Origin: Brevundimonas sp. PAMC22021
GTDB taxonomy: Bacteria; Pseudomonadota; Alphaproteobacteria; Caulobacterales; Caulobacteraceae
Length of the DNA stretch: 64,000 bases
Reading direction: 5' to 3'
NCBI RefSeq assembly: GCF_019443405.1
Contig: NZ_CP080376.1
Coordinates: 2,851,593-2,915,592, forward strand
Numbering within the stretch: position 1 is the first letter of the stretch; each line of letters begins with the position of its first letter. Under the pieces are notes generated by a model. The model ran no database searches. It saw only the letters and a list, made by a program, of their open reading frames with translations, and was not told where the DNA came from. Shown piece by piece: positions 45,053-64,000 of the stretch. Both the position numbers and the translations under genes were made by a program.

Positions 45053-45285
45053 ATTTCGGTCGAGCAGTCGTCAGACCGCCAGCATTCAGTTTTGTGCCTT
45101 TGACCGGCATCCACCCTTAGCCGCAGTTCACCTCCGACCTAAAGCGGGCATTCACAGCGATCCGTTCTCCACGATGCCCTGCCGCCGTTTGGAGGGATGC
45201 GAAATTTCAAAGGCTGGTGCATCCGGATCCCCAGTTCCCCGCCTCCTCTTCCAGAGCGTGACTGTTGCGCAGAAAGGGGATCTCG

Positions 45286-46662: not shown

Positions 46663-46906
46663 ATACGGATGGTCTTCCTGAGCGAAACGGCTAGCAGCTG
46701 ACAAACGCGTCGACCGCCTTCCAGGAAGCGGAGCTATGATGGACTTCGGCACATCCGATGCCGGGATGACGCTGTTAGGTCGAACACAACCCGCACACTC
46801 TGGTCTCGCGCCTCACTCCACAATCCGTTGCGAAGCGAACCTCCAACAAGGATCTGGTTGTGCGGTGATGAGCAGCATGAGACACGTTCCAGCCCTGCAA
46901 CAACCC

Positions 46907-48085: not shown

Positions 48086-48187
48086 GATGGATGGTCCTGA
48101 AGGCCAGTGCCGCCTGGCGTTCAAGAACGGCAAGCGACGAAGGTGATTAGACGTTTGAACGGCATGGGCCCCGTGATTGCGAGGACC

Positions 48188-49099: not shown

Positions 49100-49165
49100 G
49101 GCTCTCCCTTCGCGGTCTGTCGCCGCGTCCTCTCTTCGTCCCACTCTGAAGAAACTGTCCGTAAG

Positions 49166-49199
49166 GTCAATATTCACTAGGCGACGGGTGAACATTGAC
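49166..49199. promoter_or_regulatory. Inverted repeat in the divergent promoter region, probable TetR operator
   Basis: Arms GTCAATATTCAC (49166-49177) and GTGAACATTGAC (49188-49199) match at 11 of 12 positions around a 10-base spacer. It lies between the SDR and the TonB receptor genes, 75 bases before the receptor ATG. A TetR regulator is encoded in the same cluster and is the natural binder. Confidence 0.7.
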
Positions 49200-49274
49200 G
49201 GCGGACGGGATCGGTGAGACGGTCCGCGAATGGCGCCGACAGAGCGCTCGAGGAAACATCGAGGGAGAGAGACC

Positions 49275-51443
49275 ATGGGGCGCAAGCTCTGGCTGACCAC
49301 ATCCGCCGCGGTCCTGCTGTGGACCGGAGCCGCCCAGGCTCAAACCGCGCCACAAGAGACCGACGGTCAAGAAGAGGCGACGTCACTAGGCGAGGTGCTT
49401 GTCACCGCCGAGCGCCGAACGACCAATCTTCAGGAAACGGCTGTCGCCGCCACTGTGCTCTCCGGCGAAAGCCTGGATGACCGCGGCGTCTTCTCCCTGG
49501 AGCAGCTTCAGTTCGTGGCGCCGTCGACGACGGTGCAGAACTACGGCCAAGGCAACTTCTTCAACGTTCGCGGCATCGGAAAGTCGGAAGCGACAACGGC
49601 CATCGGCGTGGGCGTGACCACCTATCGCGACGGCGTTCCTGTGTTTCCCGGCTACTTCCAGACCGAACCCTACTATGACATCGGCAGCGTCGAACTGCTG
49701 CGGGGTCCACAGGGCACCTTCGCAGGCACCAACGCCACGGGGGGCGCGGTCTTCATCACCTCACGCAATCCGGATTTCACGGGGGTGAACGGCTATGTGC
49801 TGGGACAGGTCGGCAACTACGACAATCTGAAGCTCCAAGGCGCGGTCAACGTGCCGCTGAGCGACACCCTGGCCGCCCGCTTCGCCGTGAACAGCGAGCA
49901 ACGCTCCAGCTTCCACGACATCACCGGGCCCTACCGTGGAACCCCGGGCGAGGTGGACTCCAACAGCGTGCGCGCCAGCTTCCTGTGGACCCCGACGCCC
50001 GCGCTGCGGGTGCTGCTGAAGGGCGACTACAACAAGCTGGACTTCGGCGGCTATCCGGCTGATCCGGCCTTGTCGACCAACGATCCCTTCGAGATCACTG
50101 CGAACGGCCCCCACTCCGGCCTGGACGAGACGGCCCGCATCTCGCTGAACGTCAGCTACGTCTTCGACAACGGGATCACCCTGCGTTCGATTACCGGCTA
50201 CCAGGATGGAACAAGCGAGTTCTCGACCGATCTGGACGGGACCAGCGCTCTCAACAACACCTTCTATGACCGCGTCGAAGAGCAGGTCTGGTCGCAGGAG
50301 ATCAATCTGATCTCGCCCGACAACCAGCGTCTCACCTGGCTGCTGGGCGCCTTCTGGCAGCAGGACGACGTAACCTTCCCGGTCACCACCTTCCCGGAGG
50401 GCGCGTACCACGTCGGCTTCCCGGAAGGCGTGCTCGACTACTACATCTTCGGCGACACGCCCAAGGAGACCAAGGCCGTGTTCGGCCAGGTCAGCTATGA
50501 CATCTCGGATCGCCTGCAGATCCAGGTCGGCGCACGCTGGTCCGAAAGCACGTCGCGCAACGAAAACGTCTACACCACCTATCCTGCGCTCGGCCTGCAG
50601 CTGCTGCAGAACGACGAGGTCACCGCCGATAAGGCCACCGGCAAGGTGAGCATCAACTACAAGATAGACGACAACAACTTCGTCTACGGCTTTGTGGCGA
50701 ACGGCTTCAAGATGGGCGGACTGAACGCTCCGAACTTCTATGCTCCGGCAAGTTCGTTCGGTCCGGAAGACGTGGTCGATTACGAACTAGGCTGGAAGTC
50801 GACCTTGCTCGGCGGTCAGGTCCGCACCCAGCTTGGGGCCTACTACATGACCTATGAGGGCTTCCAGGTCGTGGTCGGCGATCCGGCTGTTCCGCTGTTC
50901 AGCTCCATCGTCAATGTCGCTGACGAGACCGTGCTGATGGGGTTGGAAGCCTCGGCTCAAGTCCGTCTGAACGCCTGGACCTTGGATGTCGGCGCTGCGG
51001 TGTCGAACTCTGAACTGGGCGAGTTCTACGCCGCCGATCCCCGCGTCGCACGCAGCGGCACGTGCGACGCTAACACCGGGCCGGCGACCGCCAATTGCCT
51101 GAACCTCGACGGGAACACTCAAGGGTATGCGCCCGAACTGACGTTCAACATCGGAGTCCAGTACGACTTCGCACTGCCGAACGGCGCGACCCTGTCGCCG
51201 CGGATCGATTACGCGCACATTGACGAGGCCTGGACGAGCATCTTCAACAACGAGGCTTTGGGCGACCGCCTGGAGTCCCGCGACCTGGTCAACCTTCTCC
51301 TTAGCTACAAGACGGGCGACTGGACACTCGCGGCCTATGCGCTGAACGCGACGGATCAGACCTATATCGCGGCGGTCAACTCGGGCCTTCGCTATGCGGG
51401 CGCTCCGCGGCAGTTCGGCGTCAATCTGACGAAGACGTTCTGA
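49275..51443 (+). CDS. TonB-dependent outer-membrane receptor
   Basis: 722 residues: signal peptide of about 23 residues ending AAQAQ, TonB-box region and plug domain (LGEVLVTAERRTTNLQETAV, FNVRGIGKSEATTAIGVGVT, DIGSVELLRGPQGTFAGTNA), then the 22-strand barrel ending FGVNLTKTF, with the terminal Phe. The energy-coupled substrate is unknown; the following genes suggest an ester or fatty-acid-like compound. It is the first gene of the right-hand arm; the operator is upstream. Confidence 0.95.
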   Translation: MGRKLWLTTSAAVLLWTGAAQAQTAPQETDGQEEATSLGEVLVTAERRTTNLQETAVAATVLSGESLDDRGVFSLEQLQFVAPSTTVQNYGQGNFFNVRGIGKSEATTAIGVGVTTYRDGVPVFPGYFQTEPYYDIGSVELLRGPQGTFAGTNATGGAVFITSRNPDFTGVNGYVLGQVGNYDNLKLQGAVNVPLSDTLAARFAVNSEQRSSFHDITGPYRGTPGEVDSNSVRASFLWTPTPALRVLLKGDYNKLDFGGYPADPALSTNDPFEITANGPHSGLDETARISLNVSYVFDNGITLRSITGYQDGTSEFSTDLDGTSALNNTFYDRVEEQVWSQEINLISPDNQRLTWLLGAFWQQDDVTFPVTTFPEGAYHVGFPEGVLDYYIFGDTPKETKAVFGQVSYDISDRLQIQVGARWSESTSRNENVYTTYPALGLQLLQNDEVTADKATGKVSINYKIDDNNFVYGFVANGFKMGGLNAPNFYAPASSFGPEDVVDYELGWKSTLLGGQVRTQLGAYYMTYEGFQVVVGDPAVPLFSSIVNVADETVLMGLEASAQVRLNAWTLDVGAAVSNSELGEFYAADPRVARSGTCDANTGPATANCLNLDGNTQGYAPELTFNIGVQYDFALPNGATLSPRIDYAHIDEAWTSIFNNEALGDRLESRDLVNLLLSYKTGDWTLAAYALNATDQTYIAAVNSGLRYAGAPRQFGVNLTKTF

Positions 51444-51533
51444 CCCAGACCCTGACGGGGCGCGGTCACTCGATCGCCGTCCCGTCAAATCCCTGCCCCC
51501 AGCATCTGTAACCTGTTGGATTGTTGCTCAAGG

Positions 51534-53120
51534 ATGATCGGCTCCCCGCCAAGCTTCATGCAGGACTACGCCCTGACCGTGGACCGCTTCCTCGACCACG
51601 GCGCCAAATGGCACGGGTCCTCGGGGGTGGTGACGGCGGGCGCGCAAGCCGACCGACGCATCAACTACTTCGACCTTCGCGAGCGCGCCAATCGCCTGTC
51701 CGGCGCCCTACTGAGTTGCGGCGTGGAGCCCGGCGACCGGATCGCCACCCTGGCCTGGAACACTCAACACCATGTTGAGGCCTGGTACGCCGCGATGGGC
51801 GTGGGCCTCGTCTGCCACACCCTAAACCCGCGGCTGACGGTCGCGCAGTTGGCTGCGATGGTCGACCAGGCCGACGATCGCGTGCTGGCCGTCGGCGCAG
51901 GCTTGCGCCACATCGCCGAAGCCCTGCTGGAAGCCTGTCCTTCGCTGGAGCGCCTGATCCTGCTGGACGACGACGCGGCTAAGAACGGACGCCCCGAGAT
52001 CTTCAGTCTTGAGAGCCTGCTCGCCGAGCAAGGTCACGCCGTCTCCTGGGGCGGTTTCGAAGAGACCGCGCTTGCCGGACTGTGCTTCACCTCCGGCACC
52101 ACCGGCGCGCCGAAGGGCGTCGCCTACACCCATCGCTCCAATTACCTGCACACTCTTCGCGCTCTGCAGGCGGATTCCATCGCCCTCACCGCCAAGGACG
52201 CCGTTCTTGTCGCCGTGCCCATGTTCCACGCCAACGCGTGGGGCCTGCCCTTTGCGGCGCCAGCCGTAGGCGCCGATCTGGTGCTGCCCGGGCGCTCGAC
52301 CGACGGAGCCACTCTGGCGGGCCTGATCGAAAGGCAGGGTGTGACGGTCGCCGTGGGCGTTCCCACCGTCTGGCTAGGCCTGTTGGATCATCTCGACGCC
52401 ACAGGCGGCGAAACGCCAAGCTTGGAGCGCATCATCATCGGCGGATCGAGCTGTCCCGACAGCCTGCTGCAAAGAATGGAGCGACGGTTCGGCGCCACGG
52501 TGCAGACCAGCTGGGGCATGACCGAGCTGTCGCCGTTGGGCGCCATCTCCCCCCGCAGCGATGTCCAGGGCGCCGCACGAGGCTCAGGTCGTCCCCCCAT
52601 GGGCCTGGACCTGCTGCTCACCGACGCGGACGGCCGCCCCCTGCCCGACCAGCGCAACGCCGTCGGCCACCTGAAGGTGAAGGGGCAAAGCGTTGTTCAA
52701 AGCTATTTCGGCGCCAGCCAGCCGGCCGTCGACGCCGACGGCTGGTTCGACACCGGCGACCTGGCCCAGCTGGACAACGACGGCAACCTGACCCTGGCGG
52801 GCCGTTCCAAGGACTTGATCAAGTCCGGGGGCGAATGGATCAACCCCGTCGAAATCGAGGAAATCGTCGGCGCTCTGCCCGCAGTCAGCCTCGTGGCGGT
52901 AATCGGCCGAGCCGACTCGAAGTGGGGCGAGCGTCCCCTGATGGTGATCGAGCCCGCGCGCGGACAGGACATCGACGATGCGCAACTGAAGGCGTCGCTC
53001 AAGGGCCGCGTAGCCGACTGGTGGATCCCCGAGCGGGTCGTGCGGGTAGAGGCCATGCCGCTTGCGGCCACGGGCAAGATCAACAAGGCCGTGCTTCGCG
53101 CCGCTCATGGAGGCGCCTAG
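51534..53120 (+). CDS. Acyl-CoA ligase (AMP-binding)
   Basis: 528 residues of the ANL superfamily: ATP loop LCFTSGTTGAPKGVAYTH, A5 motif TSWGMTELSPLGAISP, hinge DGWFDTGDLAQLDNDGNLTL and C-terminal catalytic Lys in PLAATGKINKAVLRAAHG. It activates a carboxylic acid as its CoA thioester, expected for a medium- or long-chain or aromatic acid released by the esterases here. ATG 51534 has AAGG next to it; ATG 51558 (MQDYALTVDRF) is an alternative. The TetR gene follows at TAGGATG. Confidence 0.93.
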   Translation: MIGSPPSFMQDYALTVDRFLDHGAKWHGSSGVVTAGAQADRRINYFDLRERANRLSGALLSCGVEPGDRIATLAWNTQHHVEAWYAAMGVGLVCHTLNPRLTVAQLAAMVDQADDRVLAVGAGLRHIAEALLEACPSLERLILLDDDAAKNGRPEIFSLESLLAEQGHAVSWGGFEETALAGLCFTSGTTGAPKGVAYTHRSNYLHTLRALQADSIALTAKDAVLVAVPMFHANAWGLPFAAPAVGADLVLPGRSTDGATLAGLIERQGVTVAVGVPTVWLGLLDHLDATGGETPSLERIIIGGSSCPDSLLQRMERRFGATVQTSWGMTELSPLGAISPRSDVQGAARGSGRPPMGLDLLLTDADGRPLPDQRNAVGHLKVKGQSVVQSYFGASQPAVDADGWFDTGDLAQLDNDGNLTLAGRSKDLIKSGGEWINPVEIEEIVGALPAVSLVAVIGRADSKWGERPLMVIEPARGQDIDDAQLKASLKGRVADWWIPERVVRVEAMPLAATGKINKAVLRAAHGGA

Positions 53121-53121
53121 G

Positions 53122-53895
53122 ATGACCGCCGTCTCCATCATCGAGTCGGCGCGCCCATTGCACGGGGCGCCAGAACGCCCCGAGGCCAAGACCATGACCA
53201 CATCGCCCCGCAGGCCGCGCCGCAAGGCGGAGCAACGCGCCGAAAGCCTGGAGCAGCTGCTGGACGCCGCCGAGGAGCTCTTCTCCCGCCACGGCTTCTA
53301 CGGCGTGACGATCAAGGACATCGCCGACAAGGTCGGCGTCCACAAGTCGTTGATCCACTACTACTTCACCGACAAGCAGGAGGTGTTCGACAAGGTGATG
53401 GCGCGTCGTGCGCCGATCACAAGCGGACGCCGAATGGACGCGCTGGACGCCTATGAAAAGGCGGCCGCAGGCACTCCGACCGTCGAGGGCGCTCTGCGCG
53501 CCTTCCTCGACACCGATCTGGACACCTATTCCACCGGCGGCGACGGCTGGCGCCATTTCGGGGCGCTGAGCGCTCAGATCAACAACACGCCTGCCTGGGG
53601 CGCCGAGGTCATGGATCGCCTTTACGACCCCGTGGTCCTCAGGCTCATCGGCCTGCTGAAGCAGGCCATGCCTGACGCGCTCGAAGAGGACATCTTCTGG
53701 GGCTACCACTTCGTGACCGGCGCCCTGACGCTCAGCCTGGCGCGCACGGGCCGGATCGACCACCTCTCCGGCGGTAAGTGCCGGTCCGACGACTTCGAGG
53801 CGATCAAGGCGCGGATGGCCGCCTTCATGGCGCACGGTTTCATGGGTGTCTGCCGGGACCGCGCCGAGGAACGTCGAAAGCAGGCGCGTGAATGA
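53122..53895 (+). CDS. TetR/AcrR-family regulator of the catabolic cluster
   Basis: 257 residues. HTH domain: SLEQLLDAAEELFSRHGFYG, VTIKDIADKVGVHKSLIHYY; ligand-binding C-terminal domain follows (RAFLDTDLDTYSTGGDGWRH). Likely ligand: an acyl-CoA intermediate of the pathway. Starts 1 base after the ligase stop; an ATG at 53194 is possible. The next gene starts 4 bases inside its end. It probably binds the inverted repeat at 49166-49199. Confidence 0.92.
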   Translation: MTAVSIIESARPLHGAPERPEAKTMTTSPRRPRRKAEQRAESLEQLLDAAEELFSRHGFYGVTIKDIADKVGVHKSLIHYYFTDKQEVFDKVMARRAPITSGRRMDALDAYEKAAAGTPTVEGALRAFLDTDLDTYSTGGDGWRHFGALSAQINNTPAWGAEVMDRLYDPVVLRLIGLLKQAMPDALEEDIFWGYHFVTGALTLSLARTGRIDHLSGGKCRSDDFEAIKARMAAFMAHGFMGVCRDRAEERRKQARE

Positions 53896-55139
53896 CAGCC
53901 GGCAGCTTGCCCTTCGCGGAGAACCCCGAGGTTCTCGGCTTCAGCTCAGCCCGCCTCGCCGACCTCAACGGCTACATGTCGGGCATGGTCGAGGCGGGGC
54001 TGGTGGCGGGAACCTCCACTCTGCTGATGCGCCATGGGCAGGTCGCCGCCTTCCAAACCTTCGGCCATGCTCGCCTGGGCGACGCGGCGCCACTGAGCCC
54101 CGACACCATCTTCCGCATCTACTCCATGACCAAGCCTGTCACCGGCGTGGCCATGATGATCCTGTTCGAAGAAGGGCGGTGGCGGCTTGATGATCCCGTC
54201 ACCGATCATCTTCCGGAGCTGGAGGGCCAGAAGGTCTTTGTCGGCATGGCCGATGACGGGTCCATGATGACCGAAGACGTTGTGCGTCCACCGACCATGC
54301 GCGAGCTGATGAGCCATACGGCCGGCTTGGGCTATGGCCTGTTCGACGTGCATCCGATCGAGCGCGCCTATCGGAAGGCGGGCGTGATGACCGCCGACAG
54401 CCATGACGATCTGCTGGGCCGCGTCGCCCGCATCCCGTTGATGTTCCAGCCGGGATCGGAGTGGTTCTACTCCATCGCCACGGACCTTCAGGCGCTGGTG
54501 GTGAAACGCCTGGCGGGGATGAGCTTCGGGGAGTTCCTTAGGACTCGCATCCTCGAACCACTGGGCATGGTGGACACCGGCTTTCAGGCGCCGGCGGATC
54601 AACTCCACCGGCTGGCGGAAATGTACTGCGATGGCGGCGCGGGCGAGCTTGAAGTGGCCACCAAGGCCTTCGACATGCCCATCAACGACTACACCCGCCC
54701 TCCTCGCTTCGAGAGCGGCGGCGGCGGCCTCGTGTCGACGGCGGTCGACTACGCCCGCTTCTGCCAGATGATCCTGAACCGCGGTGAACTGGACGGGATC
54801 CGCATTCTAAAGCCTGAGACCGTCGCGCTGATGGCGACCAACGTCATCCCCGATGCGGTGCTCGGGACGACCAATCCCCTTCGCCTGCTGCCCTTCAACC
54901 CGGCATTCGGTTTCGGACTGGACCTCGCGGTAGCAATTGATCCGCGGGCGCTCGGCATGGTCGAAGGCAAGGGCACACTGAGCTGGGGTGGGGGCGGGGG
55001 AACCTGGTTCTGGATCGACCCGACCAACGACCTGATCTTCGTGGGCATGATCCAGCGCATGGCCGATCCGGTCAGCAACGAGTTTCGCGCTCGGGCGCGG
55101 ACCCTGACCTACGCCGCCCTGACCCATCCTGAAAAATAG
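53892..55139 (+). CDS. Serine hydrolase, beta-lactamase family (esterase-like)
   Basis: 415 residues with SxxK (IFRIYSMTKPVTGVAMMILF), YxN-like (EWFYSIATDLQALVVKRLAG, where the motif reads Y-S-I) and a Gly-rich loop (GTLSWGGGGGTWFWIDP). It resembles EstB-type carboxylesterases of family VIII. No signal peptide; cytosolic. ATGA overlap with the TetR gene. Likely hydrolyses an ester inside the cell, upstream of the CoA ligase step. Confidence 0.9.
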   Translation: MTAGSLPFAENPEVLGFSSARLADLNGYMSGMVEAGLVAGTSTLLMRHGQVAAFQTFGHARLGDAAPLSPDTIFRIYSMTKPVTGVAMMILFEEGRWRLDDPVTDHLPELEGQKVFVGMADDGSMMTEDVVRPPTMRELMSHTAGLGYGLFDVHPIERAYRKAGVMTADSHDDLLGRVARIPLMFQPGSEWFYSIATDLQALVVKRLAGMSFGEFLRTRILEPLGMVDTGFQAPADQLHRLAEMYCDGGAGELEVATKAFDMPINDYTRPPRFESGGGGLVSTAVDYARFCQMILNRGELDGIRILKPETVALMATNVIPDAVLGTTNPLRLLPFNPAFGFGLDLAVAIDPRALGMVEGKGTLSWGGGGGTWFWIDPTNDLIFVGMIQRMADPVSNEFRARARTLTYAALTHPEK

Positions 55140-55174
55140 ACGGGCCAAAAGGCTCGCTTCACCGAGGAACGACC

Positions 55175-56494
55175 ATGAGTGCGACGCCCCTAGAGCCCGA
55201 TCGGCCGCCGCTCGCCGCCAAGCCCCTAGTCGGCAGTCGCGCCTGGGTCGCGTTGGGCGTCCTGTGGTTCATCTATGTGCTGAACTTCCTGGACCGCCAG
55301 CTGCTGTCGATCCTGGCCAAGCCGATCCAGGATGCGCTGCAGATCACCGACGGCCAACTGGGCTTGCTGGGCGGGCTGTACTTTGCGTTCTTCTACTGTT
55401 TCATCGCCATTCCGGTGGGTTGGTTCGCGGACCGGACCAACCGGGTCGCCGTGGTGTCGATCGCCTGCGCAATATGGAGCGCGGCCACCATCGCCTGCGG
55501 CCTGTCACGCAGTTTCGGTCAACTGGCGGTTTCGCGCATGACCGTTGGCTTCGGAGAGGCGGGCGGCGTACCGCCCTCCTACGCCATCATCACCGATTAT
55601 TTCCCCCCGGGCCGTCGCGGCATGGCGCTGGGCCTGTACAACCTCGGACCGCCGGTGGGTGCGGCGCTGGGCATCGCATTTGGCGCGTCGGTGGCGGCCG
55701 CCTTCAGCTGGCGCGACGCGTTTATCGCGATCGGCGTCGTCGGTTTGATCGTCGCCGTGGTCACTCCCTTCCTGGTTAAGGAACCGCGGCGCGGCGGCCT
55801 GGATCAGGCGACCTCGGCCTCGGCGCCTGTTCGCGCCGGCTTCTGGGCGACGGTGAAGATGTTCTTCTCCAACCCCGTGCTTGTGCTTGCCTCTCTTGGC
55901 AGCGGCGTGACCCAGATCGTCACCTACGGCCTCGGCAACTTCGCAGTCCTTTTCCTGATGCGCGAGAAAGGGATGACCCTGAACGATGTGGCCCTGTGGT
56001 ACGCACTGGTGGTGGCCGTCGGCATGGGCGGCGGCATCTTCGCTTCCGGCTGGCTGATCGACCGCTACACGCGGCGCTCCAAGAAGGCCTACGCTCTGCT
56101 GCCCGCGATCTCGCTGTCGCTGGCGCTGCCGCTCTACGTCGCCTTTGTGTGGGCGCCGTCGTGGCCGCTTGCCCTGGCCTTGATGCTGGGGCCGAACTTC
56201 CTCAACTACTTCTATCTGTCGTCGTCGGTCGCCCTGGTGCAGGAAGAAGTGCGGCCGAACCAGCGCGTCATGGCCGGCGCGCTTCTGCTGCTGGTGATGA
56301 ACTTCATCGGCATGGGCGTTGGACCGACCTATGTGGGCGCCGCCAGCGACTTCTTCCGCGCGGCTCACCCGGACAACTCGCTCCAGATCGCGCTCTACAC
56401 CCTAATCCCCGTGTATCTGGCGGCCATCGGCCTGTTCCTGGGGCTGGCGCGGGTGCTGGGCCGCGACACCTCACGCGCGGGAGGCGCACAATGA
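55175..56494 (+). CDS. MFS transporter, spinster-like
   Basis: 439 residues, 12 predicted helices. The first helix region VLWFIYVLNFLDRQLLSILA followed by IPVGWFADRTNRVAVVSI (the DRxxR loop motif after helix 2) and MTVGFGEAGGVPPSYAII matches the spinster-like MFS group of sphingomonads and Caulobacter. Direction of transport is not evident; in this cluster import of the substrate or export of a product are both possible. It overlaps the carboxylesterase gene by four bases. Confidence 0.92.
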   Translation: MSATPLEPDRPPLAAKPLVGSRAWVALGVLWFIYVLNFLDRQLLSILAKPIQDALQITDGQLGLLGGLYFAFFYCFIAIPVGWFADRTNRVAVVSIACAIWSAATIACGLSRSFGQLAVSRMTVGFGEAGGVPPSYAIITDYFPPGRRGMALGLYNLGPPVGAALGIAFGASVAAAFSWRDAFIAIGVVGLIVAVVTPFLVKEPRRGGLDQATSASAPVRAGFWATVKMFFSNPVLVLASLGSGVTQIVTYGLGNFAVLFLMREKGMTLNDVALWYALVVAVGMGGGIFASGWLIDRYTRRSKKAYALLPAISLSLALPLYVAFVWAPSWPLALALMLGPNFLNYFYLSSSVALVQEEVRPNQRVMAGALLLLVMNFIGMGVGPTYVGAASDFFRAAHPDNSLQIALYTLIPVYLAAIGLFLGLARVLGRDTSRAGGAQ

Positions 56495-58122
56495 TCCCGA
56501 AGATCGTCGCGTTGGGAATGGCGCTAGCCCTGCTGACCGGTGCGTCCGCATCCGCCGAAACGCCGCCCGTGGTGACTGCACCCGCCGGCGCCGTGCGTGG
56601 CGTGGTCGAAGGCGAGATCGCCAGCTTCAAGGGCATCCCTTACGCCGCGCCTCCGGTGGGAGAGATGCGCTGGCGACCGCCCGCACCCGCCAGAGCCTGG
56701 AACGGCGAACGTGACGCCACCCGCTACGGCGCCGCCTGCGTGCAGCCGACTCCTGGTGCGCCGTCCATCTATTCAGCCGATCTGGGACGAACCAGCGAGG
56801 ATTGTCTCACCCTTAACGTTTGGACGCCTTCAGCTACGGGGAAGGCTCCCGTCATGGTGTGGATCCATGGCGGCGCGCTGGTCACCGGATCGAGCAAGGA
56901 GACGCTGTACGACGGTGCGCGGCTCGCGCGCGAAGGCGTGGTTGTGGTGTCGATCAACTATCGGCTGGGCGTGCTCGGCTGGTTGTCTCACCCCGACCTG
57001 AGCGCCGAGAGCCCTGCGAGCGTCTCCGGCAACTACGGCTTGATGGATCAGGTCAGCGCGCTCCAGTGGGTCAAGCAGAACATCGCGAGCTTTGGCGGCG
57101 ATCCGGAAAACGTCACAATCGCCGGCGAGTCAGCGGGCGGCCTGAGCGTCCTCTATCTGATGAGTTCACCGCTGGCGCGTGGGCTGTTCGATCGGGCCGT
57201 CGCTCAAAGCGCTTACATGATCTCCACGCCCGAGCTTAAGGAGGCGCGCCACGGCGCCCCGGCCGCTGAGGCGGCCGGCGCCACGCTCGCGCGCACACTT
57301 CAGGCGCCGAGTCTGAGGGCCTTGCGCGGTTTGGACGCTCAAGAGTTGACGGATCGGGCTGCGCTCGGCGGCTTCGCCACCTTTGGCGTGATCGACGGCG
57401 TGGTTCTGCCGCGACAGATCGTTGATGTATTCGATCGTGGCGAACAGGCCAAGGTCCCGGTTCTGGCCGGCTTCAACAGCGGCGAGATCCGCTCTCTCCG
57501 CATACTGGCTCCGCCTGTGCCAGGCAGCACCGCAGAATACGAGCGCGTCATACGGGAGCGCTACGGCGATCTGGCGGAGGAGTTCCTGCGCCTGTATCCC
57601 TCGTCGGAGATGGAGGAGAGCATACTCGCCACCACACGGGACGCGCTTTATGGTTGGACTTCCGAGCGCCTCGTCCGCTCCCAAACAGCAGCAGGCCAGT
57701 CCTCCTTCCTCTACCTGTTCGATCATGGCTACCCGGCCGCCGACGCCGCCGGTCTGCGCGCTTTTCACGCCAGCGAACTGCCCTTCATGTTCGGCAACCT
57801 GCAAAGGACTCCGCCCCGCTGGCCTGCGATCTCAAGCGCCCAGAAAGAGGCGCACCTAAGTGATGCGATGATCGCCTACTGGACCAGTTTCATGCGCAGC
57901 GGGGCTCCAGAGGCGGAAGGGTATCCCACATGGGCATCCTATGGAGTCGGCGAAGCGTTTATGACTTTCCGCGACAGCCCGGTCCCGGAGAAAGACTTGT
58001 CCCCGGGCATGTTCGAACTTCACGACGCTACGGTGGAGCGTCGCCGCGCGACTGGAGATCAGCCGTGGAACTGGAACACGGGATTGGCTTCTCCGGCCCT
58101 TTCGAAGTCGGCCTCCCATTAG
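56491..58122 (+). CDS. Secreted type B carboxylesterase
   Basis: 543 residues: signal peptide (MIPKIVALGMALALLTGASA), then the carboxylesterase fold with the oxyanion loop VMVWIHGGALVTGSSKETLY, nucleophile elbow NVTIAGESAGGLSVLYL and the disulphide-type ends of type B esterases. RLGVLGWLSHPDLSAES also fits. Expected in the periplasm, where it could hydrolyse the incoming ester after passage through the TonB receptor. Last gene of the cluster; no terminator is apparent. Confidence 0.93.
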   Translation: MIPKIVALGMALALLTGASASAETPPVVTAPAGAVRGVVEGEIASFKGIPYAAPPVGEMRWRPPAPARAWNGERDATRYGAACVQPTPGAPSIYSADLGRTSEDCLTLNVWTPSATGKAPVMVWIHGGALVTGSSKETLYDGARLAREGVVVVSINYRLGVLGWLSHPDLSAESPASVSGNYGLMDQVSALQWVKQNIASFGGDPENVTIAGESAGGLSVLYLMSSPLARGLFDRAVAQSAYMISTPELKEARHGAPAAEAAGATLARTLQAPSLRALRGLDAQELTDRAALGGFATFGVIDGVVLPRQIVDVFDRGEQAKVPVLAGFNSGEIRSLRILAPPVPGSTAEYERVIRERYGDLAEEFLRLYPSSEMEESILATTRDALYGWTSERLVRSQTAAGQSSFLYLFDHGYPAADAAGLRAFHASELPFMFGNLQRTPPRWPAISSAQKEAHLSDAMIAYWTSFMRSGAPEAEGYPTWASYGVGEAFMTFRDSPVPEKDLSPGMFELHDATVERRRATGDQPWNWNTGLASPALSKSASH

Positions 58123-58413
58123 CCCTGTGCTGCGCTCGAGAGCGTCAGGGTGCGAGGCGACAGGGAGCTAGGAACATCCGGTCCTGCTTCGCCGATGATC
58201 TTACAGACGCAGGGCGTCTCCTTGACCGCCTTCGCAGATCAGGGTGGGGAAGACGCCGGGGCCGGGATTGCTTCACGTCAACAGTTGCGGCGTCCGGCAG
58301 ACCTCCATGGTCATGCCTGAAACGTCTGCTTCTCAGTTGGCCGGCAACGTCGCTTCTCGGACTCCAAGCCGACATTCACTCAGCGCCGAAAACACGACAT
58401 TCAACCAAGCTGT
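58123..58413. other. Non-coding junk between the carboxylesterase and the SIR2 fragment
   Basis: 291 bases with frames lacking any similarity or ribosome site. GAACGTCCGCTTTGTCGA near 58425 resembles the degenerate intergenic palindrome noted elsewhere in this half of the window. No RNA gene is recognisable. Confidence 0.5.
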
Positions 58414-58605
58414 CTAAGACTGCGAACGTCCGCTTTGTCGATTGCCTCTCCTTCCCGCAAGCAGACCTAGCCAGCGGGTAAGGTCGAGGGTGATTTCCCA
58501 GCCTGTCGGAATCTCAACGGCGCGGGAGACACCGGTACCCAATACCAAGGCATGTACACCCCGGTTCGCAAACATTGAGAAGGCTAGAGCGGTCGCATGG
58601 GTCAT
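58414..58605 (-). pseudogene. SIR2-family gene remnant (N-terminal fragment)
   Basis: The frame begins MTHATALAFSMFANRGVHAL and continues VLGTGVSRAVEIPTGWEITL, the usual N-terminus of prophage- and island-encoded SIR2-like NADases, where GTGVS is the NAD-binding GAGxS-type loop. After about residue 50 (RWLGLLAG) similarity stops and the frame ends at residue 63. The rest of the SIR2 domain, normally several hundred residues, is missing from the sequence to the left. It begins 12 bases after the stop of the glycosyltransferase gene, in the same direction. Confidence 0.6.
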
Positions 58606-58617
58606 GATCGCCCGCCC

Positions 58618-59724
58618 TCAACTCAAGTCAAAGGCCCGGGGCTCACCGACGTTGATCGAGTCGATAAGCGTGTGCAGAGGACTTATAGGGTCGTCTAGCA
58701 TCGACAGGAGTAAGCTGATCATCCAGCCGGGGCGCTGACGCAGATCCTCGATCTCAAACCGCGGCAACGCCTCGATAACGCCCTGCAGCCGCTCGTCGCC
58801 GTTGAGCCTTCGGCCGAAGAGATGCGCGACAATGCGCGGCAGCAGGGAAAACAGCACGACGTTGTGACCAACGCGAAGACGCTGCGCCATCGGACTGACC
58901 GTGCATCGTGTCTCATCCATCTTGACGCGCGGCCCGCCACTCGCTCGGGCAGCGTCGGCAAACGCGTGCAGCCAGCTTGCCTCGCGGGGAAAGCCGGCAG
59001 TCGCGAAGTTAAGCGTGGGGTTTTCATAGATGCGTCGGGCGGACGTAAGAGCTCCTGCCCGCTCTACTCGCAGGCGTTTCGCGCCCGCGGTCGCGAGCGC
59101 ACGGAGATACATTCGGGAGGTCTCAGCATGGATCTCCGATCCGTCCGGGAGGTGCTCCCGCCTCAAGCCGCCCCAACGCTGATAGTCCCTCAGACGGTAA
59201 CCGCAGGCTTTGTCGTCGATTAGCACCTCGTCGCTATCGGCGACTTCTAGCGACCGTGTTCGACCGTCGACTTCAAGCTCGAGTGCGCGGTAGGTCGCGA
59301 GCCTCGGATCGTCGGGTTTTGCCCGGCCAATGGAGGCTTCCAACAGCGTATCTGCGCCGGCGGCCGCGCGCATGCGTTCGATATAGTAGGGCAGATACTC
59401 GGTGTCCGCGTCGGCTTGGAGGATCAGCAGCTGATCAGCTTGGCAGCCACGCTCAGCGGCCAGTAGAGCAGCGTGCCTGACGCCCCGGTCGCGTGGCGGC
59501 ACAAACCCGCGTTCGCCTTCCACAATTCTTAGTACGGCCCCGGAAGGCGCTTCTGCTGCCACGCGGCCCATCACGTCCCACGTGCCGTCCGATGAGCCGT
59601 TGTCGACGAGGACGAGCTGCGCACCTGCCGGAGGATCTACACCCTCTCCAAACCCCAGTGAACGGGCCGTGGCCGCGATCGTTTCCTGTTCGTTCAGACA
59701 GGGGATTACGACCGCGACGTCCAT
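58618..59724 (-). CDS. Family 2 glycosyltransferase at the end of the RiPP operon
   Basis: 368 residues: GT-A fold with AVVIPCLNEQETIAATARSL, VLVDNGSSDGTWDVMGRV and LLILQADADTEYLPYYIERM. No clear membrane helices. ATG 59724 overlaps the stop of the GNAT gene by one base (TGATG), so it is co-translated with the RiPP genes. It may transfer a sugar to the modified peptide or make a precursor sugar lipid; nothing in the sequence decides. GT2 enzymes are also frequent in surface polysaccharide genes, but none is nearby. Confidence 0.85.
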   Translation of the reverse strand: MDVAVVIPCLNEQETIAATARSLGFGEGVDPPAGAQLVLVDNGSSDGTWDVMGRVAAEAPSGAVLRIVEGERGFVPPRDRGVRHAALLAAERGCQADQLLILQADADTEYLPYYIERMRAAAGADTLLEASIGRAKPDDPRLATYRALELEVDGRTRSLEVADSDEVLIDDKACGYRLRDYQRWGGLRREHLPDGSEIHAETSRMYLRALATAGAKRLRVERAGALTSARRIYENPTLNFATAGFPREASWLHAFADAARASGGPRVKMDETRCTVSPMAQRLRVGHNVVLFSLLPRIVAHLFGRRLNGDERLQGVIEALPRFEIEDLRQRPGWMISLLLSMLDDPISPLHTLIDSINVGEPRAFDLS

Positions 59725-60185
59725 CAAAGCGACTGCTGACGATCCCAGCGCATGAGATGCTGGGTGTAATCTGGCGGCGTCGCGTCTTGGTAGCCAGCCG
59801 CTTGGGCGGCGCGTTTCGAGGGCTCGTTCGACTTCCGCATGTGGGCGAAGATGGTTGGGTACTGGCTGTCTTCGCTGGCGAGCCGGTAGGCGATGCGCCC
59901 AATGCCCCGGCCTTGGCTCTGTCGGTTCAGGTAGATCTGGATGGAGGCATGGGGCCCCACAGGCGGCTCATCGATCCAGTTGATGAAGATGCGCCCGGAT
60001 TTGACGCCCTTCGTGACGATCGACCAGGCCTCGCCTCCCGGGCCCGCCCCCTTGCCGGGCGTGCCCTTTGCCCGAACGAGCACCACGTCTGAGACCCCGA
60101 CACGCTGGTCAGGGGGCAACGGTCGCACGGGCTTTGGTTTGGGCGTCGGCTGGTCGCCTGAGCGCCGCTTAGAGGGCTTCTTCAT
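59724..60185 (-). CDS. GNAT-like acyltransferase in the RiPP operon
   Basis: 153 residues. A basic, Pro-rich N-terminus (MKKPSKRRSGDQPTPKPKPV) leads into a short GNAT fold with the acyl-CoA loop QGRGIG at residues 91-96 (YLNRQSQGRGIGRIAYRLAS) and the C-terminal strands (TIFAHMRKSNEPSKRAAQAA, GYQDATPPDY). The gene overlaps the arginase gene by 17 bases and the glycosyltransferase gene by one. In known selidamide-type clusters a GNAT-like maturase acylates ornithine formed by a peptide arginase; the same pairing occurs here. It could instead acetylate for self-protection. Confidence 0.75.
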   Translation of the reverse strand: MKKPSKRRSGDQPTPKPKPVRPLPPDQRVGVSDVVLVRAKGTPGKGAGPGGEAWSIVTKGVKSGRIFINWIDEPPVGPHASIQIYLNRQSQGRGIGRIAYRLASEDSQYPTIFAHMRKSNEPSKRAAQAAGYQDATPPDYTQHLMRWDRQQSL

Positions 60186-61170
60186 AAAGCTCTCCAAGCG
60201 TAGCACGAAGAGTGGCGTCTGCCTCCTCCCAGAACTCAGAGGGGAAAAAGCCAGGTGAATAGGCCACCACGCCATCGACGATCCGGGGCAGCAATGCGCG
60301 TTCGGACAGTGCGCTAGCGACCGCTCGGATCCGCGCCATGACCTCCGCCCGATCGGGGTCAAGCACCTCGGGGCGATCCCGCCAGTCGCCGTCTCCGTCG
60401 AACCGATTATTGAAGTAGTCCATGTCGATATGCAGCAGGATCGGACCGTCGCCGAGATCGGCGAGCCACTCATCGATGTCAGGCGTCAGAAGGTAACTAT
60501 GAGGCCCGCTCGCTGACGATTCAGGTTTGAGGGTGATGGCGGGCCGAAGCGCACCTGGCTCAATCAAATCGTCGACGGTGGTGTCGGGAATGACCTGAAA
60601 CCGCTGGGTCTCGGTCACCTTCGGCGGCTGGCATAGATGGCGAACTTCAGCCTGCCGATAGTGATGCAGCACCGGCGTCAGGAAACTGCCCATACCGACG
60701 CCGCCCGATTGCAGAGCAGTGAGAACCGTCGCCGGATCGCGGATATCGAAGGGCTGGTTGGTGAAAGGATCGCGCCAACCGCCCTCCGTCCCAAACAGAC
60801 GCGGCGGCATCAGGTCCCGATGATCATCGACATGAAGGATGATGAGGGGCGCGTCGGGAGACCCTTCTTCCGTCGCGAACCAATGCGACCAACTCACAAG
60901 CGTCCAGGTATCGTAGAGCGCTGTCGTCACGCGCCCGCTTTGGCGGACGGCTTGCGCCATTTCTCCTAGGCTGACGCCCCATGGCCGAAGGTGGGTGTCC
61001 AACTCTGGATCAACATGCCGTTCCGGTTCGTCCGGCCAGTAGAGCTCCAGCTCCCACGCGCCGCTGCGCGCGGTCGCCCGAGCATCCCGGTCGCAGAAGT
61101 AGTCCCGCAAAAACCCGTGGCGGGCATGCGTCTCGTCGGGGAGACGATCCATGGGAACACGGATCGTCAT
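60169..61170 (-). CDS. UPF0489-family protein, probable peptide arginase
   Basis: 333 residues. Metal-binding motifs HVDDHRD at residues 113-119 and HIDMDYF at 247-253 (LIILHVDDHRDLMPPRLFG; ILLHIDMDYFNNRFDGDGDW) match the UPF0489 family, whose RiPP members, such as OspR, hydrolyse arginine side chains of a peptide to ornithine and urea using two Mn ions. It overlaps the maturase gene by four bases (ATGA), showing coupling. The precursor peptide has three Arg residues in its core, each in a Tyr/His-x-Arg triplet. Confidence 0.82.
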   Translation of the reverse strand: MTIRVPMDRLPDETHARHGFLRDYFCDRDARATARSGAWELELYWPDEPERHVDPELDTHLRPWGVSLGEMAQAVRQSGRVTTALYDTWTLVSWSHWFATEEGSPDAPLIILHVDDHRDLMPPRLFGTEGGWRDPFTNQPFDIRDPATVLTALQSGGVGMGSFLTPVLHHYRQAEVRHLCQPPKVTETQRFQVIPDTTVDDLIEPGALRPAITLKPESSASGPHSYLLTPDIDEWLADLGDGPILLHIDMDYFNNRFDGDGDWRDRPEVLDPDRAEVMARIRAVASALSERALLPRIVDGVVAYSPGFFPSEFWEEADATLRATLGELYEEAL

Positions 61171-63299
61171 GCCGCCAAGGTGTCGAGCGGCCCACGCTCA
61201 CGCAAGACCGCAGCTAGGGCGCTCCCCGCCTCCGTGAGTGAGCACCCCGATAGCGTTTCGAACGCGCTCGCGAGGTTTTCCTCCGTGTCTCGCAGCTGGT
61301 TTCGTGCACGGCTGTGCATGCGCGTGGGGCCGGTCGCGAGCACGTGCTCCCAAAAGCGTCGGAGCTCAACGAAAACGAAGATGGCGTGGAAGAGACCGGA
61401 GACCGGTCTCGGATCCTCGCGCCAGGGTGAGACCACCAAGTCACCTTGGTGGGTCGTCGGGAAGCGTCTCTCGAATAGATAGAGCTTTTGGTGACGATGC
61501 TCGTGAAGCAGGGAGTCGGCCAGATCGTAGGCATCGATCAATCCCGCACCTTGGCGCACGGAAACGAACAGGGCTCCCGGCACCGCGTCGTCGCTGAAGG
61601 ATACGATCTTGTCCGGGTGCGCCGTCGGGTCACGTACGAACTGCACGGCGGGACTAGCAGCCTGCATTTCGGAAGCCACCGCGGGCCGCCACGAGCGAAG
61701 GAGTTCGAAAGCCTCGGCAACGAGGGGCCTCGCCATCCGAGCGAGATCTTCATCCTCAAACTCGATCGCGGAGCCAAACGGAGCCCGAAGCCAACGATCG
61801 TCCGCACCGACGATCGGGAGTTCACCGGTGGTATGCCGGCGGGCCTCGATGTCGGCCAAGTAGTCCAAGTCGAGTGCGAGCGGCTGGCCGGTCACGTCGC
61901 GAACGGTCCGCCCGTCGCGCGTCGCAAGGACAACCTCGCTCCATGCAATCGACCCGGGCTGCCAGCTCATCGCATCGAACTCGGGCGTCGGCCAATCCAG
62001 GACGCGTTTGGCCCGCCCGGCAGCAGGGTTCGGCAGATTGCCGACGTACTGAAGTGCATCGGTGAACGTCGCCCGGTGGGTGGCACAGGCGGCGGCTCGA
62101 AGAGCCTCAAACTCGGCCTCGCCGGCTTCCGCAAACTCAAACTTGCCAACGTCGATGTCGAGTGCCGCAGGAGCGGCCGTCCCTCCGAGATGTTCCTCCA
62201 GACGAGAGCGTGCATGGGCAACAAGCGCCTTCATCTCGGCGCAGTAGACGGTTGGGTTTGCGAACCCGTCTGCACTACTCCAGCGGTGAGGCACTGCACC
62301 GCCACCGCAAGTCTCTACGATCGGGCAGGCTTGGCACTCGTCACACAAGCCCGCCTTCGACAGGAGGCGGCGGTGCTGCTGCAAGGCGTCGGACGCTGCG
62401 ACCGTGATGATCGCCGTATCTCGCACCGTCCCGCCAAGCTGGGTGCCGTCCCCGACCACCTTGAGAACGTCGAGGTCATGGTACGAACCATCGGTCTCCA
62501 CGGAGATCAAGCTGACATCCCCAAACCCGAATGCGTCGGTGCCAGAAGGCAGACCGAGCACCGCATCCAAAATTCCCTCGAACGTGCGGATGGCCAGGGC
62601 TGGATAGCGGTCAAACCACGCGTCAAAGGCTTGAGTTTGCCACCGGATATAGAGTTCAGGATCGAGCTCTCGACCCGGAGGTAAGCGTTGGTGGTGTGCG
62701 TCTGGCAATAGGAAGTCCAGCCGTGGGGGAGCATGTTGGGCAAAAAATGCGAGCAGCTCCTCAGGGTCTGAGCTGGCATCCACAACCGCAATGACGCCAG
62801 CGAATATCTTGGGGTGCTGCTTCAACCGCTCCAAGGCCGCCTCAACTTTGGTGAAGCTGGACCGGCCCCGCTTCGACGTTCGATGCAGATCGTTGACGGC
62901 TCGTGGACCGTCCAGGCTCAGTGAAACGCCGATGTTTTCGGCCTCGAAGAGCACCAAAGCGGCTTCGTCAAGAAGCAGACCGTTCGTCTGCAAACCGACG
63001 TCCACACTCACGCCGGTTCCGACCGTTTCCCGGATCAATCGCGCGAACTCGCAAAGCGCCTCCGCGCCGGCAAGGAGCGGCTCACCGCCATGAAAAATCA
63101 CAGCGGTTTTGGTTATGCCGGCTTGCGCCACGTACTCAGCCAAGCGATCAGCGAACGCACGCTGATCCGCCGCGCTCAGCAGCTGCGGCATCGTTCGCCA
63201 AGCTTGGTCGGCGTGGTGATAGACATAGCAATAATCGCAGTCCAAGTTGCACCTGGACGCGACCTTGACGAGGAAAGATGTGATCCTCGCCGGCTCCAT
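61167..63299 (-). CDS. Radical SAM/SPASM peptide maturase with C-terminal HExxH domain
   Basis: 710 residues from ATG 63299. Radical SAM motif CNLDCDYC at residues 17-24 (VKVASRCNLDCDYCYVYHHA) binds the 4Fe-4S cluster and SAM. A SPASM region (CDECQACPIVETCGGGAVP, later YCAEM) holds two further clusters. Residues about 420-710 form a second domain with HEHRH at about 599-603 (DSLLHEHRHQKLYLFERRF) and a later Glu-rich helix, the HExxH peptide-modification type, annotated elsewhere as alpha-ketoglutarate-dependent beta-hydroxylase. It should form C-C crosslinks (cyclophanes) in the precursor peptide encoded 7 bases upstream. A longer frame reaching 63962 overlaps that gene and is not used. Confidence 0.93.
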   Translation of the reverse strand: MEPARITSFLVKVASRCNLDCDYCYVYHHADQAWRTMPQLLSAADQRAFADRLAEYVAQAGITKTAVIFHGGEPLLAGAEALCEFARLIRETVGTGVSVDVGLQTNGLLLDEAALVLFEAENIGVSLSLDGPRAVNDLHRTSKRGRSSFTKVEAALERLKQHPKIFAGVIAVVDASSDPEELLAFFAQHAPPRLDFLLPDAHHQRLPPGRELDPELYIRWQTQAFDAWFDRYPALAIRTFEGILDAVLGLPSGTDAFGFGDVSLISVETDGSYHDLDVLKVVGDGTQLGGTVRDTAIITVAASDALQQHRRLLSKAGLCDECQACPIVETCGGGAVPHRWSSADGFANPTVYCAEMKALVAHARSRLEEHLGGTAAPAALDIDVGKFEFAEAGEAEFEALRAAACATHRATFTDALQYVGNLPNPAAGRAKRVLDWPTPEFDAMSWQPGSIAWSEVVLATRDGRTVRDVTGQPLALDLDYLADIEARRHTTGELPIVGADDRWLRAPFGSAIEFEDEDLARMARPLVAEAFELLRSWRPAVASEMQAASPAVQFVRDPTAHPDKIVSFSDDAVPGALFVSVRQGAGLIDAYDLADSLLHEHRHQKLYLFERRFPTTHQGDLVVSPWREDPRPVSGLFHAIFVFVELRRFWEHVLATGPTRMHSRARNQLRDTEENLASAFETLSGCSLTEAGSALAAVLRERGPLDTLAA

Positions 63300-63306
63300 C
63301 ACACGA

Positions 63307-63468
63307 CTACGAGCGATTGTGGCGGTGATGCATCCGATCGTAGCTCGTGATGACTTCGCTCGCCGGTGCGTCCTGGCGGACGCGCCCTTGAAGGCGTTGA
63401 AGTGCCGGATTGGTCGCGGTCGTCGTGAGCACGGACGTACGGAGGCTAGCGGTGCTGGCAGCTTGCAT
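63307..63468 (-). CDS. RiPP precursor peptide with three aromatic-x-Arg motifs
   Basis: 53 residues, absent from simple gene lists because of its size. It starts MQAASTASLRTSVLTTTATN, and the core at residues 40-53 is ITSYDRMHHRHNRS. The core contains YDR (43-45), HHR (47-49) and HNR (50-52), each fitting the aromatic-x-X3 pattern in which SPASM maturases join the aromatic ring to the beta carbon of the third residue. All three third residues are Arg, substrates for the arginase in the operon. A perfect AGGAG lies 9 bases before the ATG. The maturase gene follows after 7 bases without its own Shine-Dalgarno, so it depends on this gene for translation. Confidence 0.85.
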   Translation of the reverse strand: MQAASTASLRTSVLTTTATNPALQRLQGRVRQDAPASEVITSYDRMHHRHNRS

Positions 63469-63476
63469 AGTGTCGT

Positions 63477-63585
63477 TCTCCTACAGGAAGCAGATCTACC
63501 GCTTCCTGTATAGCTTCGCAACCACCTCTTGTATTGTTGCGGCGCATAATCGCGTAGCGAGCAGTCGCATTGAGGCTGTAGGAGA
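63477..63585 (-). promoter_or_regulatory. Leader RNA of the RiPP operon with two exclusive pairings
   Basis: On the minus-strand RNA, TCTCCTACAG (63585-63576) is perfectly complementary to CTGTAGGAGA (63486-63477), which contains the Shine-Dalgarno of the precursor. A local hairpin pairs TACAGGAAGC (63510-63501) with GCTTCCTGTA (63491-63482), perfect over 10 bp with a 9-base loop. The two pairings share bases 63482-63486, so only one can form: one hides, the other frees the ribosome site. Folding and regulation are inferred. Confidence 0.6.
63496..63570 (-). CDS. 24-residue upstream reading frame in the RiPP leader
   Basis: MRLLATRLCAATIQEVVAKL followed by YRKR. The stop codon lies in the loop of the leader hairpin (63482-63510), so a ribosome here would melt its 5' arm. 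The start lies 5 bases after the anti-Shine-Dalgarno segment, so loading would cover that segment. No Shine-Dalgarno of its own is visible, which argues for weak translation or none. Confidence 0.35.
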   Translation of the reverse strand: MRLLATRLCAATIQEVVAKLYRKR

Positions 63586-63916
63586 CTGCTAAACCGTGCA
63601 CCCCAGCGCAGTTTGAACCAATCCTTGATCCCCAACCTAGGCTTTGGCCGTTGTCGATCAGGAACTGCCGTCGCCGGGAAACCTCCGCGAAGCGCCAGAA
63701 GAAGACACTCGGTATTGGTCCGCAAGCTGACATGAAATACGGAGGACCGAAGGCGTTGGGCAGAGTTTAGGAACGTCAAGGCCGAGCCGGCAAAGGTTGA
63801 CGTGCCATGCCTCTGGTACGAGGTCATTGAAGCTTTAACCCCGAGCCCAGGTCGGGAGGCCGGAGGCATGCAAAAGCCGACCAACCCAGAGCTCAAGGGT
63901 CCTTCTGAGCATCCGA
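63571..63916. other. No supported gene upstream of the RiPP leader
   Basis: About 350 bases. Frames on either strand lack similarity to known proteins. The promoter of the RiPP operon must lie here or just inside the leader; I could not pick one with confidence. Confidence 0.5.
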
Positions 63917-64000
63917 CTAAAGCCGCGCTTGATCCTGTCGGGCTTTCAGGTTTGACGTCCACTGCTCCAACGCCGTGATTTCCTGCTCGATGGCCTCGGG
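63917..64000 (-). CDS. C-terminus of an unidentified protein (partial)
   Basis: The last 27 codons of a minus-strand frame entering from the right edge: PEAIEQEITALEQWTSNLKA followed by RQDQARL and TAG. Composition is protein-like, with a helical, charged end. The family cannot be named from this fragment. Confidence 0.4.
   Translation of the reverse strand, partial: PEAIEQEITALEQWTSNLKARQDQARL

Follow-up and report, generated by a model that had tools for sequence, protein, structure and literature searches.

What does a compact row of five genes at the end of contig NZ_CP080376.1 of Brevundimonas sp. PAMC22021 make, and what is its product for? We address this question for a stretch of 64,000 nucleotides (hereafter the window, whose positions serve as coordinates throughout; L-numbered loci are the corresponding regions of relatives, and L020 is the start region of the window's own contig). 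That the row is an operon of the triceptide type, for a ribosomally synthesised and post-translationally modified peptide (RiPP), is well supported. We consider it probable, furthermore, that this triceptide-type operon is horizontally mobile and adds arginase, acyl and sugar steps, as proposed below, to the cyclophane chemistry. The five genes are all on the minus strand, in the following order:

63307..63468, minus strand: yhhA, precursor of 53 amino acids (aa), MQAASTASLRTSVLTTTATNPALQRLQGRVRQDAPASEVITSYDRMHHRHNRS, matching NF041705
61167..63299, minus strand: yhhB, radical SAM/SPASM cyclophane maturase with fused alpha-KG-HExxH domain, 710 aa
60169..61170, minus strand: peptide-arginase-like ureohydrolase, 333 aa, in no Pfam family
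59724..60185, minus strand: protein of GNAT acetyltransferase fold, 153 aa
58618..59724, minus strand: family 2 glycosyltransferase (GT2), the last operon gene, PF00535, ATG start with an alternative TTG at 59727

A preliminary description of this DNA had proposed the tightly packed layout, and every gene was found in its place with the same junctions: yhhA and yhhB are separated by seven bases, yhhB and the arginase-like gene overlap at ATGA, the arginase-like and GNAT genes overlap by 17 bases, and the GNAT stop and glycosyltransferase start share TGATG. The last junction follows from refining the glycosyltransferase start to the ATG at 59724, one codon after the alternative TTG. AGGAG is present upstream of yhhA. 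The grouping is more than chance, because the precursor matches its family at E 6.3e-19 despite a length of only 53 aa and because the gene order recurs in relatives.

Both the peptide and its enzyme carry the identification. The precursor scores 67.8 bits against NCBIfam NF041705 (cut-off 36), and YhhB scores 485.4 bits against NF041707 (cut-off 445) and 507.2 bits against the FxsB model TIGR04269 (cut-off 370), which bears out the earlier suggestion of a cyclophane RiPP operon related to YhhA/YhhB. Residues 527-697 of YhhB match the alpha-KG-HExxH domain TIGR04267 with 130 bits (cut-off 40), so that the maturase is a radical SAM/SPASM enzyme fused to an HExxH hydroxylase domain, as had been proposed. 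Its SPASM cysteines are intact (CDECQACPIVETC), and the best matches of its two halves in the Protein Data Bank (PDB) are ChlB and ChlH (9gm3 and 8s5f; 475 and 258 bits). The key motifs are located as follows:

63313..63342, minus strand: core triplets, candidate three-residue cyclophanes (YDR 63334-63342, HHR 63322-63330, HNR 63313-63321)
63228..63251, minus strand: radical SAM cluster motif CNLDCDYC (CxxxCxxC), YhhB residues 17-24, PF04055
61491..61505, minus strand: HEHRH (HExxH) motif, YhhB residues 599-603, within TIGR04267, with identical residues in the ChlH alignment

The core of the window's precursor reads YDR-M-HHR-HNR-S, that is, three aromatic-x-Arg triplets, of which the first has Asp and the second His as its middle residue; residues 39-53 (VITSYDRMHHRHNRS) have a calculated mass of 1907.93 Da. 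The candidate crosslinks would join each aromatic residue i to Arg i+2, and these positions are near-fixed across relatives. According to PMC11002830, YhhB attaches C-beta of Arg to C3 in Tyr and to C2 in His; PMC12636437 describes hydroxylation of Asp and His by a fused HExxH enzyme once the cyclophane scaffold has formed. Since the family matches, the likeness to ChlB/ChlH and the aromatic-x-Arg core all agree with the published chemistry, the YhhA/YhhB-HExxH part of the operon is of a known kind, to which cyclophane formation and Asp/His hydroxylation can be transferred from the published relatives. The preliminary idea of a fused enzyme that crosslinks and hydroxylates was right as an identification, with the correction that such a fused combination has already been characterised for ChlB/ChlH.

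In the maturation scheme that we propose, YhhB would recognise the leader stretch NPALQRLQxRV, and its radical SAM domain would build two or three cyclophanes of three residues each in YDR-M-HHR-HNR-S by linking the rings of Tyr43, of His47 and possibly of His50 to C-beta of the Arg at i+2. Beta-hydroxylation of the middle residues Asp44 and His48 by the fused HExxH domain would follow. The third protein, a divergent relative of peptide arginases, would turn at least one cross-linked Arg into ornithine; the GNAT might acylate the amine so created, or else an N-terminus set free; and GT2, in loci that have it, may glycosylate the peptide, most simply on a new beta-hydroxyl. The succession of these steps is likewise tentative.

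Arginase action of the third protein is likely. A profile search matches it to PDB 8brp at E 9.9e-7, and it shows an OspR-like fold, with guanidinium hydrolase and formiminoglutamase as the next folds below OspR. Two metal motifs stand out:

60814..60834, minus strand: metal motif HVDDHRD (DXHXD), residues 113-119 of the arginase-like protein
60412..60432, minus strand: metal motif HIDMDYF, residues 247-253 of the arginase-like protein

H113, D115, D116, H117 and D119 of the first motif and H247, D249, M250, D251, Y252 and F253 of the second are invariant in all 38 aligned sequences (the query included, and 21 of the 120 listed database proteins; L006 and L007, where the gene lies in two open reading frames (ORFs), were left out). 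D249 and D251 align with OspR Asp165 and Asp167, the OspR metal ligands being those given in PMC10028609. The branch comprises 684 database proteins, and none of the best 120 has a Pfam domain.

The two remaining enzymes are named more easily than their substrates. The GNAT lies barely above the PF13302 cut-off (25.5 vs 25.4), and its profile found no match among PDB sequences at E<=0.1. The model folds clearly as a GNAT and has many close matches, including acetyltransferases for aminoglycosides, bleomycin, spermidine and lasso peptides; fifty listed entries fall within 1.6 Z, and the fold gave no specific substrate. The modelled fold would fit an amine acceptor and names no particular one. 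The glycosyltransferase is above the PF00535 cut-off (34.7 bits vs 23.3). Acylation of ornithine by the GNAT as in selidamides, and action of GT2 on the peptide, are unproven.

Relatives were sought by a pattern scan of GTDB species genomes with the arginase-like protein, which reaches close relatives only and gave 18 loci. A YhhB relative lies upstream of the arginase-like gene in all 18, and a YhhA-like precursor is present in 17 (the exception, L003, also lacks the start of yhhB). The preliminary description would have been given up had the maturase or the arginase-like protein fallen into non-RiPP families, or had homologous operons lacked a conserved small precursor; nothing of the kind was found. 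The HExxH region occurs in 15 of the 18 loci, the GNAT in the same 15 and the glycosyltransferase in 13. Two gene fusions tie the operon enzymes together: a single open frame in R. leguminosarum (L061:9980-13132) encodes YhhB-HExxH plus arginase, and one in R. tumorigenes (L056:10100-11608) encodes arginase plus GNAT. At L007 an insertion element separates the HExxH region from the radical SAM part. On plasmid pTiL51_94, an IS21 insertion likewise divides yhhB into its radical SAM and HExxH halves (L062:13205-15546).

An extra gene for a DUF483-like protein, with GYPxCC and HxPCxxxC motifs and scores below the Pfam cut-off, occurs in 12 of the 18 loci (L002, L004, L005, L006, L008, L009, L010, L013, L016, L017, L018 and L019); no such gene was found in the window. 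Neither this gene of the relatives nor the near-fixed core and the anti-phage neighbourhood figured in the preliminary description. The operon is rare, with a patchy distribution: among genomes of the family, YhhA exceeds its cut-off in 2 of 149, among those of the phylum in 1 of 398, and YhhB does so in 3 of 385 of the class, each count including the window's own genome. Five plasmid records carry the arginase-like gene, all of them alphaproteobacterial, and the four records with at least 80% of YhhB are among these. His-Xaa-Ser maturation genes lie near the operon in two rhizobial plasmids (hxsB, hxsC and hxsA at L056:13840-16966; hxsC and hxsA at L062:19904-21624).

Several observations weigh against the proposed scheme as a whole. 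Regarding the arginase step, the third protein has no Pfam match at E<=0.1, PF12640 included, and scores only 22.2 bits against NF052474 (cut-off 350); the earlier assignment to the UPF0489/peptide-arginase type was therefore right as to a divergent relationship and wrong as to PF12640 membership. The EEH(N/H)EAF motif, which holds the sixth ligand, does not occur in the 38-sequence alignment, and by position OspR His12 would fall close to Asp87 (Glu in Clostridia), a placement deduced from the range of the alignment and not from a measured ligand. These losses from the OspR metal site, together with the guanidinium hydrolase and formiminoglutamase folds that come next after OspR, speak for an enzyme of ureohydrolase fold that acts differently, perhaps as an amidinohydrolase or in a deiminase-like way on some modified side chain; with both metal motifs kept and OspR still the nearest fold, we regard this as improbable.

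As for the later steps, no HExxH, GNAT or GT was found in the three clostridial loci, which comprise YhhA, a second radical SAM gene, an unfused YhhB, the arginase and the DUF483-like protein. Because the arginase-like gene occurs there without HExxH, GNAT or GT and with a second radical SAM gene, the later steps do not form one fixed chain. This second gene sits between yhhA and yhhB (L017:7646-8590, L018:1467-2387, L019:7612-8550; 60-62% identity to the L017 copy). GT2 was not found at L013 and L015, the contig of the latter starting just before the operon, and it lies upstream of the operon in L009 and L014, so that it may be only loosely linked. Pedobacter has YSR, not YDR, as its first triplet despite the presence of HExxH. 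L059 has an HExxH-fused YhhB with no arginase match nearby, so that the link between the two is not absolute. The same locus (L059:6503-12403) holds two yhhB genes, an unfused one accompanied by a YhhC relative and another, for 725 aa, fused to HExxH; a GNAT and a small HExxH-like protein are encoded between the two. Finally, an ABC exporter-like gene, recognised by eye, adjoins the operon downstream in clostridial L018, which argues against a purely intracellular product.

This exporter leads to the question of what the peptide does. Many characterised cross-linked RiPPs are secreted bioactives, and several relatives of the operon are on plasmids; the product might thus be an exported antimicrobial or signalling triceptide, carried as mobile-element cargo and served by a protease and an exporter from elsewhere in the genome. 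On the other hand, no exporter, protease or immunity gene is found among the window's five operon genes, and the core behaves unlike those of families selected for new targets. At the C-terminus, the proteobacterial loci and the cyanobacterium read SYDRMHHRH[SN]RS; Pedobacter has DYSRMHHRHNRS there, and Clostridia have (S/G)YSRMHNRHNRS. Among the database homologues of YhhA, all of the best 120 of 365 end in ITSYDRMHHRH[SN]R[ST], while much of the leader varies, except for the NPALQRLQxRV stretch. Since these 120 were selected by similarity, the cross-phylum loci, which agree on the core, are the stronger evidence of its conservation. The second triplet is HHR in all 14 loci read that have HExxH and HNR in the 3 without it. 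A near-fixed core, and five genes without exporter or protease, point to one product with one conserved job instead of a diversifying antibiotic, and we regard the exported peptide as a possibility of the second rank.

The contig ends 532 bases past the precursor gene, and an 870-codon open frame spans both contig ends, which speaks for a circular chromosome. The frame has the orientation of the operon and reaches to about position 63917, immediately upstream of it. The piece of this frame at the contig start (L020:1-2529) is a PDC-S06 AAA_13 ATPase (3.8e-189). It is followed within L020:3256-9289 by a HEPN/Toprim protein (1.9e-49) and then by Lamassu genes LmuA-LmuB-LmuC, with LmuA in two ORFs (2e-64 and 1.2e-44), LmuB at 9.7e-166 and LmuC at 3.4e-72. 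No tRNA was found at 45000-64000, and hence no tRNA-linked integration signal there, and the GC content (0.63 in the operon, 0.65 to its left) differs too little to serve as an argument. For a viral origin, protein P0002 had no relative found in IMG/VR or INPHARED, and the idea was dropped. A SIR2 remnant guessed by eye at 58414-58605 (a 63-aa ORF) has no Pfam match and reaches only E 1.3 to the L016 SIR2; it is not claimed.

Such neighbours recur. A PADLOC match at E<=4e-26 lies within about 9 kb at 11 of 20 full-type loci: the window, L004 and L016 (SIR2, L004 also AbiEi), L005 and L062 (CBASS), L010 and L054 (pAgo), L013 (PDC-S02), L014 (Lamassu), L055 (Septu) and L056 (PDC-S24). Nothing stronger than a methyltransferase at 7e-17 was found at L015. 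L002, L003, L006, L008, L009, L011, L012 and L061 gave no strong match, few neighbours there having been scanned singly, and a reading by eye showed no defence gene in the three clostridial loci.

For comparison with other places, proteins at E<=1e-50 were counted, the raw PADLOC family numbers (169, 30 and 1) being set aside because one system matches many models. At least 11 of 135 operon neighbours qualified among the matches listed (10 confirmed singly, plus L062:9139-10935, taken to be the second E1-E2 member). Other radical SAM loci gave about 5 of 129, and places elsewhere 0 of 120. The control figure of 5, also among the matches listed, takes RmrA, MTase_II, mREase_II and UzuA (E<=1e-50) and RTasRmuC (1.1e-50) as one protein each. 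By a one-sided Fisher test, p is 0.12 against the other radical SAM loci (0.065 if their count is 4 instead of 5) and 0.0007 against other places; by locus, 7 of 17 compares with at most 5 of 20 (p 0.24) and with 0 of 20 (p 0.002). The neighbours were proteins of 180-1100 aa, of which 135 of 157 eligible, from 17 loci, were used; a residue limit excluded the other 22, namely what remained of L056 together with L061, the window and L020 entire; L003 was omitted beforehand as similar to L054, and L014:2137-5610 exceeds the 1100-aa limit and was not counted. The controls are random draws of 129 of 195 and 120 of 222 eligible proteins, from 20 radical SAM loci hand-picked among below-cut-off matches and from 20 arbitrary coordinates, one per genome. 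Compared with arbitrary places, residence in defence islands is thus clear; compared with other radical SAM loci, it is no more than suggestive.

These counts, the defence genes beside the window's operon and the patchy distribution among genomes would suit an operon that serves in its own right as an anti-phage system, or in another intracellular conflict, with the modified peptide as effector, like the 'lanthiphages' of actinobacteria. However, the difference from other radical SAM loci does not reach significance, and no sensor or phage-triggered part was recognised in the operon. RiPP clusters in general co-locate with defence genes, according to PMC12715929, so that cargo on shared mobile elements suffices as an explanation. 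We therefore judge this alternative unlikely. A shade less probable still is its fullest form, a RiPP-based immune module in which a fixed intracellular peptide, with two or three cyclophanes, beta-hydroxylated, ornithine-containing, acylated and sometimes glycosylated, is matured by a new peptide-arginase branch with an altered metal site and protects the cell or mobile element from phage or acts in abortive infection. The operon proteins themselves gave only weak viperin matches in PADLOC, from the radical SAM core, which were not taken as membership of a system. A near-fixed core from Alphaproteobacteria to Clostridia in antiviral-gene surroundings hints at a role other than that of an ordinary antibiotic. 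Because one nearly unchanged core occurs in loci with CBASS, Septu, Lamassu and Argonaute genes, what it does can be tested directly. If the proposed scheme holds, the arginase branch would extend peptide arginases to cross-linked Arg and could become a useful tool enzyme.

Searches in an open-access library listed nothing that, judged by title or abstract, connects triceptides with a peptide arginase, or phage defence with YhhA, triceptides or cyclophane radical SAM enzymes. They also gave no biological job for YhhA-type triceptides, though the chemistry of triceptides is known. The nearest known systems include the ChlA/ChlB/ChlH triceptides (Morishita 2024, Ruel 2025) and the YhhABC triceptides (Sugiyama 2022). 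ChlA/ChlB/ChlH of Chlorogloeopsis (PDB 9gm3, 8s5f) shares with YhhB the fused radical SAM/SPASM and alpha-KG-HExxH maturase, and its product is made by cyclophane formation and then Asp/His beta-hydroxylation, according to PMC12636437; the cyanobacterial relative L013 has the arginase and GNAT. YhhABC, as annotated on Vibrio echinoideorum plasmid p1, likewise has a YhhA core of three aromatic-x-Arg triplets and a YhhB; unlike in the window, YhhB is unfused, a separate 2-oxoglutarate (2OG) oxygenase, YhhC, is present and there is no arginase match. In relatives of this type, Thr replaces Met between the first two triplets in 4 of 4 read, and other middle residues occur. One such YhhA-YhhB-YhhC relative, in the window's own family, comes with an HExxH-like protein and adjoins a SIR2-like protein (L060:1353-6352).

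With the peptide arginases OspR, FlmR, OhkR and PbsE (PF12640) and KgrD (PF00491), the window's protein has in common the ureohydrolase fold, DXHXD, the second Asp pair and a RiPP partner; it differs in that neither PF12640 nor NF052474 recognises it and in having no EEH(N/H)EAF. YhhA is not among the peptide-arginase precursor types named in the accessible portion of PMC12703449. The selidamides described there, in which an arginase is paired with a GNAT acylating ornithine, resemble the window in the adjoining arginase-like and GNAT genes and differ in precursor and maturase. The lanthiphages, finally, are anti-phage lanthipeptides in defence islands; PMC12715929 mentions this function for actinobacteria and places class II lanthipeptide clusters near defence genes as well. 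The window's operon also lies amid defence genes; it belongs to another RiPP class and another phylum.

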